The notes beneath the pieces are model-generated. The model did no database searches, was not told the DNA's origin, and saw nothing but the letters and a program-made list of their open reading frames with translations. Shown one piece after another: positions 6,679-24,901 of a stretch of 25,027 bases of DNA. The stretch spans positions 1 through 25,027 of IMG/VR virus record IMGVR_UViG_3300028173_000054; one strand, written 5' to 3'. Origin of the DNA: a virus. The first letter of the stretch is position 1. Each line of letters begins with the position of its first letter. Made by a program: the position numbers and the translations under genes.

Positions 6679-7155
6679 ATGTTAACAAAATTTGAAGATA
6701 TAATAGAAGTGGTTTTAGAGCACGAGGGTGGATATGTAAATGACCCGAAAGACCCTGGTGGCGAGACAAACTTTGGTATTGCGAAGCGTTCACACCCTGA
6801 CGTAGATATAGCCAATCTAACTAAAGATGGTGCTAAAGAAATCTACAAGGAACATTATTGGGTTAAGAATAAAGTAGAATCTCTGTCAGAAGAGTTGCGT
6901 CACATTTACTTTGATATGTGTGTAAATCAAGGTAGAGGAAGAGCAGTAAAGATTTTACAACAAACTGCTAACGCTAAAGGAGCAGGATTAAAGGTAGATG
7001 GTGGAATGGGGCCGATGACGATAAGAGCAATGGATGGTGTTGAGTTAGATAGAGTTCGTGCATATCGTGTTAAGTATTATGCCGATTTAGTAACAAGAAA
7101 ACCAGATTTGGAAAGATTTTATTTTGGTTGGTTTAGGAGAGCATTGGAAGTTTAA
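6679..7155 (+). CDS. GH108-family lysozyme (endolysin or virion muramidase)
   Basis: 158 residues from ATG 6679, chosen because AGGAG sits at 6669-6673; an in-frame ATG at 6637 lacks an SD and overlaps the promoter-like motif. The N-terminal half is a glycoside hydrolase 108 domain with the signature H-E16-G-G-Y, NDPKDPGGETNFGIA and YWVKNKV, where E16 is the expected catalytic acid. The C-terminal half (QGRGRAVKILQQTAN, VDGGMGPMTIRAM) is the peptidoglycan-binding type 3 domain that usually follows. The enzyme cuts the glycan strands of peptidoglycan. No signal peptide or membrane segment is seen, so export would need a holin, or the protein rides in the virion. The stop overlaps the next start (TAATG). 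Confidence 0.92.
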   Translation: MLTKFEDIIEVVLEHEGGYVNDPKDPGGETNFGIAKRSHPDVDIANLTKDGAKEIYKEHYWVKNKVESLSEELRHIYFDMCVNQGRGRAVKILQQTANAKGAGLKVDGGMGPMTIRAMDGVELDRVRAYRVKYYADLVTRKPDLERFYFGWFRRALEV

Positions 7156-8015
7156 TGTTAAGAAAACTTTTAAAAGAAATAATAAAAATTGAACTTCGAG
7201 AGTTTCTCGAAGATACAGGGAAACTTTGTGTTGTTCTAATGGGATTACCAGCCGCTGGGAAGTCAACTTGGATTAATAATGAAGCAAAAACCTATATACC
7301 AGGATTTACAGGGTATAGTGTAACTAATTCTGATGCACAAGTACAAGCTTTACAATATGATACTGCAATGTTACATTATAATCATTTAATAAAGGAGATA
7401 GATAGTGAAAGACGTTTTCAAGAGTTTATACTTCAGACAACTTATACTTCTAATAGAGGTAAACAAATAAGTTTACCAGTTGATTATGGTTGGTGGGAAG
7501 AAAATAAGAGTAAGGGTGCTAGTTGGTATTATAAACAATTATATAAATCATATTATGCGTCATATTTTGATATAAGAGATATAGCAAAGAAATATGAAAA
7601 GGATTTGTTTAATACTAAAATACATAAAGCTGGAAAACTTCTTGTAATAGATACTGTCGCGTCAAAACCACCAAAAATTTTAGGTAGATTGAAAAAAACT
7701 CGTCAACAAGGATATCATAATATTATTGTTTATTTAGAAATACAATCAGATTTAGCTGTAGCAAGAGATAAGTGGAGAGAAAAAAATAAAGGTAGAGGCG
7801 TAGGAGCATCTATAATTGATAATTATGCTAAAAATATGAGTTCCGCGTATAAAGTTTATAAAACAGAAGGAAAAGATGATAGTGGGTTAGTTGACAGATT
7901 AATGTATTTTAAATGGTATCCGGCCGGAGCATCACCAATTAAGGGTGTTTGGAAAAAATTGGAAGATAACCGATATTCTATTAAAAGAAAAATAAGAAAA
8001 TTGAGGGAGAAATGA
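7155..8015 (+). CDS. P-loop kinase, zeta-toxin / polynucleotide-kinase-like
   Basis: 286 residues. After a charged amphipathic N-terminal helix (residues 1-19) comes a beta strand and a clear Walker A, G30-LPAAGK36-ST. Later features fit the zeta-toxin/polynucleotide-kinase fold: SVTNSDAQ after the second strand, LVIDTVASKPPKI, the GYHNIIVYLEI strand, and DLAVARDKWREKNKGRGV, an Arg-rich lid-like segment. Members phosphorylate small molecules (zeta toxins act on UDP-amino sugars) or nucleic-acid ends; the substrate here is not known. The C-terminus is basic. It is translationally coupled to the lysozyme and followed at once by the nucleotidyltransferase-ligase gene, suggesting a nucleic-acid end-processing or nucleotide-salvage pair. 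The N-terminal helix resembles capsid-targeting helices elsewhere in the window, but its cleavage site (FLE/D) is not canonical. Confidence 0.75.
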   Translation: MLRKLLKEIIKIELREFLEDTGKLCVVLMGLPAAGKSTWINNEAKTYIPGFTGYSVTNSDAQVQALQYDTAMLHYNHLIKEIDSERRFQEFILQTTYTSNRGKQISLPVDYGWWEENKSKGASWYYKQLYKSYYASYFDIRDIAKKYEKDLFNTKIHKAGKLLVIDTVASKPPKILGRLKKTRQQGYHNIIVYLEIQSDLAVARDKWREKNKGRGVGASIIDNYAKNMSSAYKVYKTEGKDDSGLVDRLMYFKWYPAGASPIKGVWKKLEDNRYSIKRKIRKLREK

Positions 8016-8016
8016 A

Positions 8017-10611
8017 TTGAACGGAATGCAAAAACTTGTTGAAAGTGTTGTTCGAGACACTATCGGTGAAGCCTCAGACCCACAATCAAACACAGCACCA
8101 AAGAAAATAGAACAAGTAGTTGGTGTTTATGTTGGTAGATTTCAACCTTTTCACGTTGGTCATTTTAACACTTATAATGAGATGGTTAAACAATTTGGTA
8201 AAGGTAATGTTTTTATAGCTACGTCAAATGTTAGTGGTGGTGATAGACACCCATTTAATTTTAAAGAGAAACAAAAAATTATTAGTAAAATGTATGGTAT
8301 AAAGAAGAGTTCTATTGTTCAAGAAAAGAATGTTTATTCTCCAGTTAATATTTTATCCAAGTTTGATTCAGAAACTACAGCTGTAGCGGTAGGTTTAGGT
8401 AAAAAAGATTCTGGTAGACTTGGTGGTAAGTATTATAAGAAATTTACTGGAAAAAATATGAAGGGTTTCGAGAAAGAAGGCTATATTTATATAGTACCAA
8501 CGTTTAAGTTAAAAGTTGGTGGTACTACTATAAGTGGAACAACAGTTAGGAAGATATTGGGTTCGCCTGATATAGATGAAAATAAAAAGAAAAAATTATT
8601 TAAGGTTATTTTTGGTAAGTTTGATAATTCAATGTATGATTTTATAACGAATAGAGTAATGTTTGACCATATAAAGCTAGATGGTGTATTATTAACAAAA
8701 GAAATGCTTGGTAAATTTTTTATAGAGAATAATGTAAAAGATATTTTAAAAGAGGCTTCAACAATTACGACTACTAATTCGAAGAGGGGTGCAAATGCAG
8801 GTGGTGGAGCTCCAGATGATGGGCCAGGAACGTTCTACCAAAATTTTTCGGATTATTATAGAGTATCAAAAGATGCAGTTCCTTGGTTTATGCAAAAAAC
8901 AGGTTGGAGTGTTGTAGAATTTTTGATTAAAGATAAAGAAGAAGAAGTTTTAGACCCCGATATGGATTTTACTATGATTAGGAATCCAATCTCAGCTGCG
9001 ACATTTGGAAGAGCTGGTTCTATACCAGGTGATAAACAAGTAATGAAAAAATATAAATTAAGATTAAGTAGTGTGTTAGAAAGACTTGGATGGGAAATAA
9101 TCAAGTGGATGGGTACAGATAGTAAAGGTGTTCAAATATCACAAAAACCAACTAATGAATATGGTAAAGGTAAAACTACGTGGTCTTCTAAAGGAACTAA
9201 ACATGAGAAAGCTACATTATCAACAAATGCTGATATGAGTGATGCGGGTTTACCAGTTAAAAAACAAAAACCAGACGATGAAATTGGTCAATTAAATTTA
9301 ATTGATAAACAGAAAGGTATTGGATGGAAAGGTTTAAACGAAAAAATAGATATAGTTGATGAAGTAAAACAACTAATACTTGAAGGTGGCGCATATGGTC
9401 ATTTAGCTCACCCATTTGATGATAATAATTTAACATTTAGAGATTTTAGAACAATAATTACTAATACTTTAAAAGGAGAGATTAGTAAAGAGAAACCAGC
9501 TACTGAAAAGACAGATGGCCAGAATATAATGATAAGTTGGCGAGATGGTAAACTTATAGCCGCCAGAAACAAAGGACATTTGAGAGATAGGGGTGCTAGT
9601 GCTCTAACTACCGCCGGGATTAGTAAGATGTTTGCAGGTAGAGGTGATTTACACACAGCGTTTAGTATGGCTATGAAAAATTTAGAAACCGCTATAAGTG
9701 CTCTTAGTGACGCCCAAAAAGATAAAATTTTTAAAGAGGGTGAACAATTCATGTCTTTGGAAATTATCTATCCAAAAACAGCTAATGTTGTACCATATGA
9801 AAAATCATTGTTAATATTCCACGGCGTAATTCAGTATGATGAGATGGGAGCTCCAATTGGGGATATGTCTTCATTCGCTCGTATGTTAGCAGGTATGATT
9901 AAACAAATTGATAAAGATGTACAAAGTGAATTTGCAATTGAATATCCACCAGTAGTAGAATTACCAAAAATAAAGGATTTTTCAAAACGTAAAAAATATT
10001 ATATTGGTAAATTAAATTCTTTACAGAAAAAGTATAAGTTAAAAGCTGGTAATACCTTGGGTGATTATCATCAAGCGTTTTGGACAGACTATATTACTAA
10101 AGCTACAAAGAAAACAAAGACTAAATTACCAGAAAGTGTGTTTATTAAATTAGTTAAACGATGGGCTTTCTTTGATAAGTCATATAAGTTATCACAAGTT
10201 AAAAAAGATTTAAAGAAATTTCCAAAGTTTTTAGATTGGGTGTTAGAAACCGATAAAGAAAACCACAAAGAAATATATAAAGACAATATTTTACCCTGGG
10301 AAGAATTATTTTTAGGACTTGGCGCAGAAATAATGTTGAATATGACACATTTGTTGACTGCTAACCCAGAAGCTGGTGCGTTGAAAATTAAAAATGATTT
10401 GGAATCTACTATTAAGGCTATTCAAAGTACTGGTGATTTAAGTTTGATAAAAAAATTAGAAGGTCAATTAAAAAAATTAGAAGCAATAGGTGGATTTGGT
10501 TCAATCGTTTCATCAGAAGGTATAACATTCACGTATGGTGATAAATTATATAAGTATACTGGTACTTTTGCACCAATCAATCAAATTTTAGGTTTATTAA
10601 AATACATATAG
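8017..10611 (+). CDS. Fusion of HxGH nucleotidyltransferase and RNA/DNA-ligase-like enzyme (possible polyprotein)
   Basis: 864 residues. The TTG start at 8017 is preferred because GAGGGAGA ends six bases before it; ATG 8026 is the alternative. Residues ~34-215 are a cytidylyltransferase/NMN-adenylyltransferase-type domain: GVYVGRFQPFHVGH (H46, H49) and ISGTTVR (172-178). Residues ~262-445 are not recognised. Residues ~457-864 look like a covalent nucleotidyltransferase (ligase): K498-T-D-G (motif I), ARNKGH (motif Ia), SLEIIYP and LLIFHG (motif III/IIIa region), E834-G-I (motif IV) and KLYKYTG (motif V). Three segments (TIGE18/AS, ILKE246/AS, LILE456/GG) look like prohead-protease sites, each after a short helix and each before a new domain. 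The substrate is unknown; RNA repair, NAD metabolism and nucleotide capping all fit. Confidence 0.78.
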   Translation: MNGMQKLVESVVRDTIGEASDPQSNTAPKKIEQVVGVYVGRFQPFHVGHFNTYNEMVKQFGKGNVFIATSNVSGGDRHPFNFKEKQKIISKMYGIKKSSIVQEKNVYSPVNILSKFDSETTAVAVGLGKKDSGRLGGKYYKKFTGKNMKGFEKEGYIYIVPTFKLKVGGTTISGTTVRKILGSPDIDENKKKKLFKVIFGKFDNSMYDFITNRVMFDHIKLDGVLLTKEMLGKFFIENNVKDILKEASTITTTNSKRGANAGGGAPDDGPGTFYQNFSDYYRVSKDAVPWFMQKTGWSVVEFLIKDKEEEVLDPDMDFTMIRNPISAATFGRAGSIPGDKQVMKKYKLRLSSVLERLGWEIIKWMGTDSKGVQISQKPTNEYGKGKTTWSSKGTKHEKATLSTNADMSDAGLPVKKQKPDDEIGQLNLIDKQKGIGWKGLNEKIDIVDEVKQLILEGGAYGHLAHPFDDNNLTFRDFRTIITNTLKGEISKEKPATEKTDGQNIMISWRDGKLIAARNKGHLRDRGASALTTAGISKMFAGRGDLHTAFSMAMKNLETAISALSDAQKDKIFKEGEQFMSLEIIYPKTANVVPYEKSLLIFHGVIQYDEMGAPIGDMSSFARMLAGMIKQIDKDVQSEFAIEYPPVVELPKIKDFSKRKKYYIGKLNSLQKKYKLKAGNTLGDYHQAFWTDYITKATKKTKTKLPESVFIKLVKRWAFFDKSYKLSQVKKDLKKFPKFLDWVLETDKENHKEIYKDNILPWEELFLGLGAEIMLNMTHLLTANPEAGALKIKNDLESTIKAIQSTGDLSLIKKLEGQLKKLEAIGGFGSIVSSEGITFTYGDKLYKYTGTFAPINQILGLLKYI

Positions 10612-16862: not shown

Positions 16863-17483
16863 ATGTCAAAATCACTTTTAATAGATATTTTACCCTTTGA
16901 GGTAACATCACAACAAATAAACGAGTCCATGTCAGACAATCGTGGTAGATTGGTAGTTAGTGGTGTGTTACAGCGAGCTAATTCTAAAAATCAAAATGGT
17001 CGTATTTATCCAAAAGAAGTTTTAATACGTGAAGCTAAAAAATATACAAAAGAATTTATTAAACAAAGTAGAGCTCTTGGTGAATTAGACCATCCAGAGT
17101 CTTCGGTTGTTAATTTAAAAAATACATCACACAATGTTAAAGAGATGTGGTGGGAAGGTGATAATTTACTTGGCAAGTGTGAAGTTCTTTCTACACCAGC
17201 TGGTAACATTTTAAAAGAATTGTTTAAATCTGGTATAAAACTTGGTATTTCTTCACGAGGACTTGGTTCTGTTGAATCCGCAAACGATGATGATACACAA
17301 GAAGTACAAAAAGATTTCGAATTGATAGCATTTGATTTTGTTTCTAACCCATCTACACATGGGGCTTTTATGCATCCAATGAATGAAGGTGTTAATAAAG
17401 AAAATACACGTAATGATGGAACTACTTGTGATAAATGGTGTAGAACTGAAGCAATAATTTCAGACATATTAACTGGAATATAA
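16863..17483 (+). CDS. 21: Prohead maturation protease, gp21-like
   Basis: 206 residues, with GGAG at 16851-16854 fixing the start. Family features: RLVVSGVLQRANSKNQNGRIYP, GELDHPESS with H77, and LGISSRGLGS with S130/S131, giving the His and Ser expected of the herpesvirus-assemblin-like serine protease fold; then FELIAFDFVSNPST. In T4 this enzyme sits in the prohead core and cuts scaffold, capsid and internal proteins after (L/I)-x-E, then destroys itself. A matching site in its own N-terminus, QI19-N-E21 followed by S22, fits self-processing. The last ~30 residues, with two Cys, are unlike the core and may be a removable tail. Confidence 0.93.
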   Translation: MSKSLLIDILPFEVTSQQINESMSDNRGRLVVSGVLQRANSKNQNGRIYPKEVLIREAKKYTKEFIKQSRALGELDHPESSVVNLKNTSHNVKEMWWEGDNLLGKCEVLSTPAGNILKELFKSGIKLGISSRGLGSVESANDDDTQEVQKDFELIAFDFVSNPSTHGAFMHPMNEGVNKENTRNDGTTCDKWCRTEAIISDILTGI

Positions 17484-19108: not shown

Positions 19109-20434
19109 ATGATGAGTAATGTTTCAAAAAAGAATTGGAAATCTTTAGTTGCAATTGCAAAAACAGCTAGAGAATTTTCTGGCAAAACTGGTGATTCATA
19201 TGATGGAAGAGGATATTTTCCAAATAAAAATATGAGTAATGCAGTTAGAAGTGCCGAAGAAAGAGACGCTAAAATGCAAGGTAAAGCGTTAGTATCTAAA
19301 ATGGAAAGTCAATATGATAATGCAGATGAATTGAATAAAGGAACACGATATATGGATGTTCCTAAAAAGATGATAAAACATAAACTTGATATAAAAGTAG
19401 GAAAACCTGGTACTACACATTTTATCAATACTGAAAATAAAATGAAATATATATTTGGAGAAAGTAAAATGAAGAAATCACAATTTAAACAATTAATAAG
19501 AGGTATGGTGTCTGATGTACTCGAAGGTAAGGGTTCAGCCCCTGGTTCACCAAAAGGTGGAGAAGGCGGAGGTTCAGGGTTTGCAACACCTGGTGCCGTT
19601 TCTAAAGGTGGATTTTCATTACGAGATTTTGCCAAAGTCCTTGGTGGTTTTGGTGGTGGAAGAACAAGTAAAGCTGGCGTGAAGAACGTGAGCAAGGGGC
19701 TCCAACCCGACGTCACAAAAGCAGCAAAACAAGCAAAATATTCTTTATTTAAGGGCAAAGAGATAGATTCTTGGAGAGAAATGGCATTATCCGGGGGTGA
19801 ATTTGTTGCAAAATCCAAGTACCAGACTACTAAATCAAAAACAAAGACGGTATCTTCTAAAATGAGTTCTTTAGCGGCAATACGTCAAACAGATAATAAT
19901 TTTATTAAAGCCGCTGGTGGTCGTAAAACAGGAACTGCTAGTGCTAAAATGAAAGTTAGTGCTAATTATATTGCTCAGAAATCAACCGCTATTTCACAAT
20001 ATACCGCTATAATTGATAATGAAAAAAATAACTTGGACAATATGTTAAATACTATTGTTGCTGGTGGTGGTGCTGGTACCAATGAACATCAAGCACTTTT
20101 AAATTTAAAAGAAGATTTAGACCTTAGAAGAGCAGAATATGTATTAAAGTGGGATTATGCTACAGCGGCTTATTCTGGAGACAAGACTGGTATGCAAAAT
20201 GTTCGAAATTCTTTGGAAACAAATAAAAATTCAAGGATGAAACGAGTTAAGAAAGTGGGTTCTGGTACTTATTCATCCGTAGCGGCGTGGTCGTCAGGCG
20301 GTAAATACTCGGCAGGAGATGTTGTTACTGCTGCTGGAACCCAATATACGGCCATTGGTAAAGATAGTAAAGCTTGGGGTGCGAATGACCCATCCGGACG
20401 TGGAAGTCAAAGCTACTGGCAACCAAAGAAATAA
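19109..20434 (+). CDS. Head-cluster paralogue 1, with internal start and C-terminal CBM5/12-like domain
   Basis: 441 codons if read from 19109, but that ATG has no SD and abuts a promoter-like motif. An in-frame ATG at 19469 has GGAG eight bases upstream and begins MKKSQFKQLIRGMVSDVLEG, nearly the start of the next gene, so a 321-residue product is likely, with the first 120 codons a separate extension or leader. From 19469 the helix ends in VLE19/G20, a relaxed protease-site match. The core (SKGGFSLRDFAKVLGG...SSLAAIR...LKEDLDLRRAEYVLKWDYATAAY) aligns with the next gene along its length. The last ~55 residues (VAAWSSGGKYSAGDVVTAAGTQYTA...YWQP) are absent there and resemble a CBM5/12 chitin-binding-type module: W-x3-G-x-Y-x-A-G-D-x-V, then aromatic residues. 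Confidence 0.72.
   Translation: MMSNVSKKNWKSLVAIAKTAREFSGKTGDSYDGRGYFPNKNMSNAVRSAEERDAKMQGKALVSKMESQYDNADELNKGTRYMDVPKKMIKHKLDIKVGKPGTTHFINTENKMKYIFGESKMKKSQFKQLIRGMVSDVLEGKGSAPGSPKGGEGGGSGFATPGAVSKGGFSLRDFAKVLGGFGGGRTSKAGVKNVSKGLQPDVTKAAKQAKYSLFKGKEIDSWREMALSGGEFVAKSKYQTTKSKTKTVSSKMSSLAAIRQTDNNFIKAAGGRKTGTASAKMKVSANYIAQKSTAISQYTAIIDNEKNNLDNMLNTIVAGGGAGTNEHQALLNLKEDLDLRRAEYVLKWDYATAAYSGDKTGMQNVRNSLETNKNSRMKRVKKVGSGTYSSVAAWSSGGKYSAGDVVTAAGTQYTAIGKDSKAWGANDPSGRGSQSYWQPKK
19457..19471 (+). promoter_or_regulatory. Internal ribosome binding site and ATG
   Basis: GGAG at 19457-19460 lies eight bases before the in-frame ATG at 19469. The encoded start, MKKSQFKQLIR, is paralogous to MKKSQVRQLVR at 20437. 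Both points support initiation here, either as the only start or as a second product. Confidence 0.6.
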
Positions 20435-23290: not shown

Positions 23291-24901
23291 ATGTCAAAAA
23301 GTAATCTAAAGTCTATTGAAGGCTTAATGGATAAATATAATCCATATAAAGAGCGGCTAAATGAAACTCGTAAGTTGGTAAACAAGTGGGAGCCCACTGG
23401 TTTACTCGAAGGTATTAGTGAAGAATCTAAAGTATTTGGAATGGCAAGTCTATTGGAAAATCAAGCTCGTCAATTAATTGATGAGTCTTCCAGGACAAGT
23501 ACCCAGTCTAACTCGGAAGAGTGGAGTGGTGTTGCACTTCCTTTGGTACGTAGGATTTTTGGTGAATTGGCGGCACAAGATTTCGTATCTGTTCAACCAA
23601 TGAATTTACCTTCAGGACTTATTTTTTACCTTGATTTCAAATATGGAACAGCTCAAGCTGGTCACACAGAGAATTCAGATGTACATGGTATGACATCTGG
23701 TTCTAATGTCGATGCTTCTGGTGGTCTATATGGAGCAGGTAAATTCGGATATTCAATTAACGATTCCGTAGCAAGTATAGCAGAAGGTAGTTATTCATCT
23801 GCTTCAGTTGTTTGGGGTGACGTTGATTTTGAACCCGACCTGAGTTCTTCATTAGCCAACCTAAGAAAAGTCACTATCGCCTTAGCAGACGATGGTATGA
23901 CAAATCCTGACCAAGATGGTGTAAGAGCCTTCGAAATTTCAGGTTCTGATACAGCGGCTATCGCAACTTATTATCCTGCTTATTCTAACTGGGATGGTTC
24001 AAACTGGAACTTTATTGTAAAGACTTCTGGTGCGTACGAAGTTGATGGCTCTGTACATATTAAGTATCACAAATCACCTACTGATATAACTCGTGGTGAT
24101 TTTGAAGATACACCTGCCGAACCACCAACGGATATTGGAATTCCTGAGATTGATATTCAGATGAAATCTATTCCGATTGTAGCAAAAACTCGTAAACTGA
24201 AAGCTGTTTGGACTCCTGAGCTTGCTCAAGATTTAAATGCTTATCATTCTGTTGACGCAGAAGCTGAGTTGACTGCTATGTTATCAGAATACATCTCAAT
24301 GGAAATTGATTTGGAAATCCTTGATATGTTGATGAGTAACGCTTCAGCAAAAACAGAACGTTGGTCAGCAAGAGTGGGGTATGAGTATAATGCTTCTACT
24401 GCTCTTTTCGCTGCCACATCTGATAACGCTTCCGCGTACGTAAAAGGAACTTGGTTCCAGACTCTTGGTAACAAGATACAGTCTGTTTCCAATGCAATCC
24501 ATCAGAAAACTCTACGTGGTGGAGCAAACTTTATGGTCGTAAGTCCTGAAGTTGCTACTATCATTGAGTCTATTCCTGGATATGCTGCTGATACGTCTGG
24601 TGACGCGTCACAGAGTTCATTTGCAATGGGTGTACAAAAAGTTGGTTTATTGAACAACCGTTTTACGGTCTACAAGAATCCATACATGCAAGAGAACGTA
24701 ATACTTTGTGGTTTTAGGGGAAGTAATTTCCTTGAAACTGGTGCTGTATACGCTCCATATGTACCACTTATCATGACTCCGTTGGTCTATGACCCAACTA
24801 ACTTTACTCCTCGTAAGGGTGTGATGACAAGATACGCGAAGAAAATCGTGCGTCCTGAATTCTATGGTAAGGTTGTTGTTGCTGATGTTAATTACGTTTA
24901 A
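23291..24901 (+). CDS. 23: Major capsid protein, gp23-like
   Basis: 536 residues, with GGAG upstream. The N-terminal region follows T4 gp23: LVNKWEPTGLLEG, then LLENQARQLIDE65 followed by S66-S. A cut after Glu65 matches both the protease consensus and the T4 cleavage position (Glu65/Ala66). HK97-fold core: EEWSGVALPLVRRIFGELAAQDFVSVQPMNLPSGLIFYLDF, then an inserted Ser/Gly-rich stretch, the long-helix region KLKAVWTPELAQDLNAYHSVDAEAELTAMLSEYI, and FMVVSPEVATIIESI, QKVGLLNNRFTVYKNPYM, YVPLIMTPLVYDPTNFTPRKGVMTRYAKK. Codons look different from most of the window, with more C-ending ones (AAC, GAC, TAC), as expected for a very highly expressed gene. Confidence 0.97.
   Translation: MSKSNLKSIEGLMDKYNPYKERLNETRKLVNKWEPTGLLEGISEESKVFGMASLLENQARQLIDESSRTSTQSNSEEWSGVALPLVRRIFGELAAQDFVSVQPMNLPSGLIFYLDFKYGTAQAGHTENSDVHGMTSGSNVDASGGLYGAGKFGYSINDSVASIAEGSYSSASVVWGDVDFEPDLSSSLANLRKVTIALADDGMTNPDQDGVRAFEISGSDTAAIATYYPAYSNWDGSNWNFIVKTSGAYEVDGSVHIKYHKSPTDITRGDFEDTPAEPPTDIGIPEIDIQMKSIPIVAKTRKLKAVWTPELAQDLNAYHSVDAEAELTAMLSEYISMEIDLEILDMLMSNASAKTERWSARVGYEYNASTALFAATSDNASAYVKGTWFQTLGNKIQSVSNAIHQKTLRGGANFMVVSPEVATIIESIPGYAADTSGDASQSSFAMGVQKVGLLNNRFTVYKNPYMQENVILCGFRGSNFLETGAVYAPYVPLIMTPLVYDPTNFTPRKGVMTRYAKKIVRPEFYGKVVVADVNYV

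Follow-up and report, generated by a model that had tools for sequence, protein, structure and literature searches.

The prohead protease gp21 of phage T4 recognises and cuts after L/I-X-E; its substrates are IPI-III, Alt, gp22, gp67, gp68 and gp23, and the propeptide of gp23 is 65 residues long (PMC9026906). In the giant phage SPN3US, 13 of 14 mapped cleavage sites remove N-terminal propeptides (PMC10052503). Polyvalent proteins of phages and conjugative elements are multidomain effectors delivered with the DNA; they have been proposed to be split into units, and they have been likened to the polyproteins of RNA viruses (Iyer et al. 2017, PMC5512222). RNA repair and NAD+ systems, as found in jumbo phages, are known phage themes (PMC7824862). 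In the open-access literature, we found no report of packaged phage enzymes being released from a polyprotein by a capsid protease.

The window analysed here is the whole of a 25,027-nucleotide stretch whose source record is a 25-kb virus fragment. We consider it quite likely that one of its genes encodes a packaged modular cargo polyprotein of T4-like (mostly marine) phages, which their S77 protease would cut at the joints between modules. The direct evidence consists of the sites themselves, their positions between folded domains, their conservation, the shuffling of modules flush with them, and the existence of separate-gene versions. The parts of the gene are listed below, with a slash marking each candidate cut.

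8017..10611, plus strand: polyprotein gene, 864 aa, TTG start; targeting-type helix, NMNAT-like domain, middle module, RNA-ligase-like domain
8020..8070, plus strand: N-terminal helix ending TIGE18/, capsid-targeting-sequence-like (sequence; AF2 helix 2-15; similar gene starts)
8071..8754, plus strand: candidate piece 1, residues 19-246, NMNAT/cytidylyltransferase-like, folded at 32-215 (PF01467, phrog_395, Foldseek)
8698..8754, plus strand: joint 2 helix and site FFIENNVKDILKE246/AS ([LIM]xE in 39/39)
8755..9384, plus strand: candidate piece 2, residues 247-456, middle module with conserved DDGPxTFY, no confident fold
9352..9384, plus strand: joint 3 helix and site IVDEVKQLILE456/GG (AAGGAG-N9-ATG instead in other lineages)
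9385..10608, plus strand: candidate piece 3, residues 457-864, covalent-nucleotidyltransferase/RNA-ligase-like, folded from about 462 (alignment, AF2, Foldseek)

The translation of 8017-10611 agrees exactly with the sites named in the preliminary description, TIGE18/AS, ILKE246/AS and LILE456/GG (P3-x-P1 of I-G-E, L-K-E and I-L-E, hence P3 of I, L and I), and with its piece lengths of 228, 210 and 408 residues; cuts at 18, 246 and 456 yield an 18-aa peptide in addition. The TTG start is plausible because GGGAG lies just upstream and close relatives have ATG at the same position. Matches to [LIM]xE/[AGS] number five in the ORF (at 9, 18, 246, 456 and 706), compared to 1.8 expected from composition, and four in the 277 residues outside the AF2 domains, compared to 0.6 expected. 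When residues 216-461 were shuffled, sites appeared at both joints in 0.19% of draws. Taken alone, these chance statistics are modest, and the conservation described below is much the stronger evidence. It should also be noted that the match at residue 706 (about 10132-10134) is a conserved KLPE/S inside the folded ligase. Since an LxE/[AGS] match lies within a fold and close to two matches are expected by chance, we rejected a reading based on the motif alone as insufficient.

The gene sits in what is, by sequence and gene order, a T4-like head cluster, with the following neighbours.

7155..8015, plus strand: P-loop kinase gene adjoining the polyprotein gene, with its own N-terminal helix (AAA_33 E 2.5e-5, Zeta_toxin E 1.8e-4, both slightly below the Pfam cut-off)
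11415: putative terminase (sequence and gene order)
13008: putative portal-like gene (sequence and gene order)
16863..17483, plus strand: prohead protease, Peptidase_S77, T4 gp21-like (PF03420 E 4e-32; phrog_207 E 5e-56)
22214: putative acidic scaffold-like gene (sequence and gene order)
23291..24901, plus strand: putative major capsid protein, gp23-like, with LIDE65/SS (sequence)

The LIDE65/SS site of the capsid protein falls at the residue where T4 gp23 is cut, and the C-terminus of the S77 protease itself contains PMNE/GV. A helix followed by [LIMVF]xE/[AGS] begins many other genes of these phages, and the motif is enriched at N-termini in these contigs. The polyproteins of relatives contain a fused P-loop kinase, possibly of a different family from the 7155..8015 gene. 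Elsewhere in the window, the ORF at 19109-20434 has an internal in-frame ATG (19469; region 19457-19471) with GGAG upstream at 8-nt spacing. After this ATG comes a targeting-like helix, MKKSQFKQLIRGMVSDVLE/GK, which has a paralogue at the beginning of the following gene (20437), and the ORF is perhaps another fusion with an internal start.

AF2 gave high confidence at residues 32-215 (NMNAT-like) and from about 462 to 864 (RNA-ligase-like), an N-terminal helix at residues 2-15, and low confidence at 16-27, 216-343 and 362-461. All three sites fall in the low-confidence regions, outside the folded domains, which bears out the earlier claim that sites 246 and 456 flank the domains. Piece 1 matches PF01467 (E 5.4e-6) and phrog_395 (E 3.9e-13), has an NMNAT as Foldseek match (E 2.4e-5), and carries GRFQPFHVGH (HxGH) and ISGTTVRK (ISSTxxR-type) in the matching fold. 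By motif and fold it is predicted to be an NMNAT-like HIGH nucleotidyltransferase; because its score is far below the NadM equivalog cut-offs, we assign no substrate. PF01467 is the only Pfam match of the polyprotein, in which we found no MPTase or signature peptidase domain.

An alignment of the ligase-like domain shows invariant E-K-x-D-G (motif I KxDG), EG[IV] and YKxTG (downstream motifs IV and V). Foldseek returned an archaeal RNA ligase (probability 0.89) and T4 Rnl1 (probability 0.72), with E-values of about 0.01. No ligase family in Pfam, PHROG or NCBIfam matched piece 3, and a PDB profile search with the ligase alignment gave chance hits only. By its motifs, piece 3 resembles an RNA ligase or covalent nucleotidyltransferase, and it may share the ligase fold. 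For the middle piece (247-456), two AF2 attempts produced no confident fold (pLDDT 41), and no sequence match was found in annotated phages or PHROGs; we therefore rejected it as a third enzyme. The polyprotein thus appears to consist of two enzyme-like domains and one module without an assigned role. The preliminary description had proposed three enzymes, each piece being one domain, in a polyprotein with prohead-protease sites at its joints. The sites stand, supported by unfolded joints and separate-gene homologues, and the first and last pieces are folded as described, but the count of three enzymes is unsupported for the middle piece.

At joint 2, P1 is Glu and P3 is L, I or M in 39 of 39 relatives (window included), in which residues 230-243 and 249-266 are freely variable. 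The relatives that keep P1 and P3 fixed within variable linkers are at about 45% identity. The P1' residue is Ala or Ser in some 60% of them; roughly a third have Val, Asn or Tyr there, and sites of the latter kind deviate from the simplest motif. One relative (L035) lacks a site at the usual place, the nearest being LDE/S 13 residues upstream. At joint 3, a DNA pattern scan anchored solely on GGAYGHxxHPFD gave 79 distinct junctions, comprising 65 Glu, 13 Met and one Cys; every one of the 64 readable Glu junctions has L or I at P3. The Cys junction (L348) has an apparent inserted element and was counted for neither side. Near position 2199 of that contig, Cys and an HNH-like sequence precede the ligase start, and the ligase reading shifts after about 125 aa; the gene possibly contains inteins or an inserted homing element.

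In the Met lineages, the protein reads KELLLM/GGAYGH and the DNA reads AAGGAG-N9-ATG, in frame, with the Met at the same residue as Glu. Lys-Glu is encoded by AAGGAG at 22 of 24 Met-type joints, whereas just 1 of the 133 Lys-Glu pairs elsewhere in these ORFs is encoded in this way. A wider Met-type sample has AAGGAG in 58 of 69 cases, and AGGGGG, AAGGGG or AGGGAG in the others. No in-frame AAGGAG-ATG was detected in 69 Glu-type ORFs, and in Glu-type proteins with KELLLE the Lys-Glu codons are AAAGAA or AAAGAG. In three Met-type cases the residues are altered to RG or KG with the purine-rich block retained. Since this block is kept even where the amino acids change, and given the AAGGAG codon bias, the Met-type joints point to selection on the DNA for an in-frame internal translation start. 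In the genes of these phages, AGGAG usually lies 5-7 nt from the start codon (9 nt in 2 of 83), so internal starts at 9-nt spacing may be weak.

A Met that precedes Gly is normally removed, and proteolysis and internal initiation would both give a ligase N-terminus of GGAYGH. On a tree of the ligase domain, built by a quick search and with some long branches, there are eight changes between the Glu and Met states, seven of them forced by well-supported branches (at least seven switches). A changed protease specificity in the Met lineages is unlikely, as the other joints of these proteins retain Glu sites. Glu-less homologous fusions had been regarded as evidence against cleavage, and 28 listed relatives with KELLLM/GG initially seemed to be such a case; we set this objection aside when their DNA showed AAGGAG-N9-ATG. 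Glu is present at the large majority of joint-3 junctions, and most of the 14 that lack it have an SD-ATG instead. Separately, L230 (from position 995, scan strand) contains a separate gene of 943 aa from GGAYGHMNHPFD, which follows directly after an ATG just past a stop codon, suggesting that MGGAYGH is a native start in another family.

Homologous fusions number about 100 and reach 2094 aa, with various modules swapped in. P-loop kinase/zeta-toxin-like modules are present in L070 and L073, a CCA-tRNA nucleotidyltransferase with an HD domain in L119 (PolyA_pol E 4.5e-31) and a Zn_protease match in L114; identified by eye were a ParB-like DGHHRW module and a DEDDh-like exonuclease module. The last of these is in L166, where the order is middle, exonuclease-like, NMNAT-like and ligase, with E/[AG] at the joints. 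Large indels between relatives start and end after Glu in 32 of 65 cases (null mean 1.8, maximum 7, 500 draws), and 23 of 65 are bounded by [LIMVF]xE (null 0.35); the 65 were partly deduplicated, so the events are only partly independent. The test allowed a slack of 2-4 residues, the same for the null; without slack there was no signal among the indels, the aligner placing gaps arbitrarily. Clean flush examples are L021/L022 and L029/L030. A scan of genomes for a cellular origin gave five contigs, each of which comes from a metagenome-assembled genome and is probably viral.

E/G stands before the kinase module in all 16 of its contexts, in which the module forms a separate gene, is N-terminal or is internal. 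The cultured phages with this module include HTVC008M (MIPFILKE/GLYDPGIFKA) and Melnitz (MKTFAELQE/GVYDPNIFKA), where it has a gene to itself, and Agrobacterium phage Atu_ph07 (SEVTE/GVNDKHIFKA), where it is internal. The Atu_ph07 protein (AUZ94865.1, L205:1754-4090) has 778 aa, starts MKWNDLNE/A and continues with an upstream domain, which may be an ADP-ribosyltransferase, before VTE/G and the kinase module. In cultured Microcystis phage Mel-JY01, an NMNAT-like domain is joined to the ligase by IIAE/GG without a middle module; a cut in this protein (WWT39297.1) would yield a peptide that starts GGLGGHMNHPFDD. In Synechococcus phage S-SM2, SSM2_109 (L204:2492-4618, T4-GC 119; 708 aa) lies just before the terminase gene, starts with one of the modules of the polyprotein family and has many xNE/[AGE] joints; polyproteins of this type may also exist in cyanophages.

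The preliminary description had proposed a search for homologues in which the parts are separate genes starting with the helix. Modules do occur as separate genes of this kind, with the helix and a site. The ligase does so with LILE/GG in L037/L118 and with LLKE/GG in L343 and L345, and the kinase module from the family's other polyproteins behaves likewise. The middle module is a separate gene in L150, where the N-terminus FIVENDIISIIKE/GA has the helix and IIKE/G; this start, FSGDKIGDFIVENDIISIIKE/GAG, is similar to the helix at joint 2 in the window, FFIENNVKDILKE/AS. Separate middle-module genes with an L150-like start are found in L157 and L195. These two contigs each have a second, separate middle-module copy (L157:2213-2992, L195:2794-3684), downstream of the full ligase gene and ending in a cut-off ligase start (about 60 aa, counted from GGAYGH), which looks like a duplication or recombination remnant. 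In L049, a stop codon at position 562 in the joint-3 linker, where relatives read NE, splits the modules upstream from the ligase. Translation of the ligase could resume at a GTG, which would leave the helix and LLLE/GG intact, or the stop could be a sequencing error.

These separate genes could be taken to mean that packaged proteins became fused by loss of stop codons and that the internal helices are non-working leftovers. Fusion is surely part of the history, given that separate-gene versions carry the same helix and site, and the point stop in L049 shows that change can also go in reverse. Non-working leftovers would be expected to decay, yet the P1 Glu and a P3 of Leu, Ile or Met are fixed within variable linkers, the joint-3 Glu is replaced almost only by an internal start, and new modules are inserted flush with the sites. 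We therefore consider it improbable that the old N-termini are relics, the alternative offered in the preliminary description.

Alternatively, the joint helices and Glu might belong to domain folds, packing surfaces or internal core-binding helices and remain uncut. The hydrophobic residues of LLxE and KELLLM are conserved as well as the Glu, and the ligase residues directly after the joint are invariant, as a structural role would have it. However, AF2 confidence is low at both joints and the ligase fold starts after the site; the short product of the internal-start lineages drops everything upstream of GGAYGH; and E/G precedes the kinase regardless of the upstream module. Such a role is thus quite unlikely to account for the sites. 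It is very unlikely that short shared sequences around xNE/A simply drive module exchange without a proteolytic role, since, while exchange at these points is clear, it is residues and not nucleotides that are kept (codons around E/GG differ widely between relatives, and Glu with a hydrophobic P3 persists without shared DNA), and mere exchange does not explain why a ribosome-binding site takes over at the same residue. Relic, structural and recombination-only readings each cover parts of the data, and they explain poorly the substitution of a ribosome-binding site for a cut site at one residue.

Returning to cleavage of a packaged polyprotein, we infer targeting, cleavage, packaging, ejection and the functions of the pieces from the features described. 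The N-terminal helix would target the polyprotein to the prohead core, like T4 capsid-targeting sequences, and the gp21-like S77 protease would cut after Glu in [L/I]-x-E/. The cut at residue 18 would free the targeting peptide, and those at 246 and 456 would separate the modules. The head would then contain an NMNAT-like enzyme, the middle module and an RNA-ligase-like enzyme, and these freed pieces would be ejected with the DNA. A likely use would be early repair of host damage (tRNA/RNA sealing, NAD+ supply). Across the family, the predicted functions suggest tRNA/RNA repair in the case of RNA ligase, kinase and CCA-adding enzyme, and those of the NMNAT-like domain and kinase could serve NAD+ supply.

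More generally, the family probably represents a string-of-beads cargo system in which modules (kinase, CCA-adding enzyme, NMNAT, exonuclease, ligase and others) are shuffled between capsid-protease sites within one packaged precursor. At the ligase joint, proteolysis and an internal ribosome-binding site would be interchangeable and repeatedly switched, with the same GGAYGH. If this is true, dsDNA phages pack enzymes as a precursor that the capsid maturation protease releases, following the logic of Gag-Pol. One targeting helix would load several enzymes at a fixed ratio, and the cut sites would confer modularity. The site rule would also offer a sequence-based route to packaged enzymes in metagenomes, and a cargo for RNA sealing, NAD+ supply and CCA repair suggests counter-defence delivered from the head.

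Compared to the T4 gp21 system, the window is alike, by sequence, in having an S77 protease in the same gene cluster, L/I-X-E/ at the sites, a short N-terminal helix of the targeting type followed by a site, and a site at residue 65 of the major capsid protein. Processing in T4 trims the ends of enzymes and internal proteins (both termini in the case of Alt); division into several pieces is confined to scaffold and core proteins, and most of those pieces leave the head. In the window, by contrast, enzyme-like domains are joined by sites. The prohead proteases of giant phages (SPN3US gp245, phiKZ gp175) share P1 Glu after a short motif and packaged enzymes (vRNAP); their substrates differ in that no multi-enzyme string has been reported there. 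Polyvalent proteins likewise have several domains in one polypeptide. A built-in MPTase is their proposed cutter, while a separate capsid protease would cut the polyprotein of the window. The RNA repair and NAD+ systems of jumbo phages, and T4 Pnk/Rnl1, include similar components (ligase, kinase, CCA-adding enzyme, HIGH nucleotidyltransferase) described as genes of their own; in the window's family these are fused behind targeting-type helices in a head-gene cluster. Retroviral Gag-Pol and RNA-virus polyproteins are packaged as a precursor that the particle's protease cuts into enzymes. The logic proposed here is similar, without homology and with a phage protease that is encoded separately.
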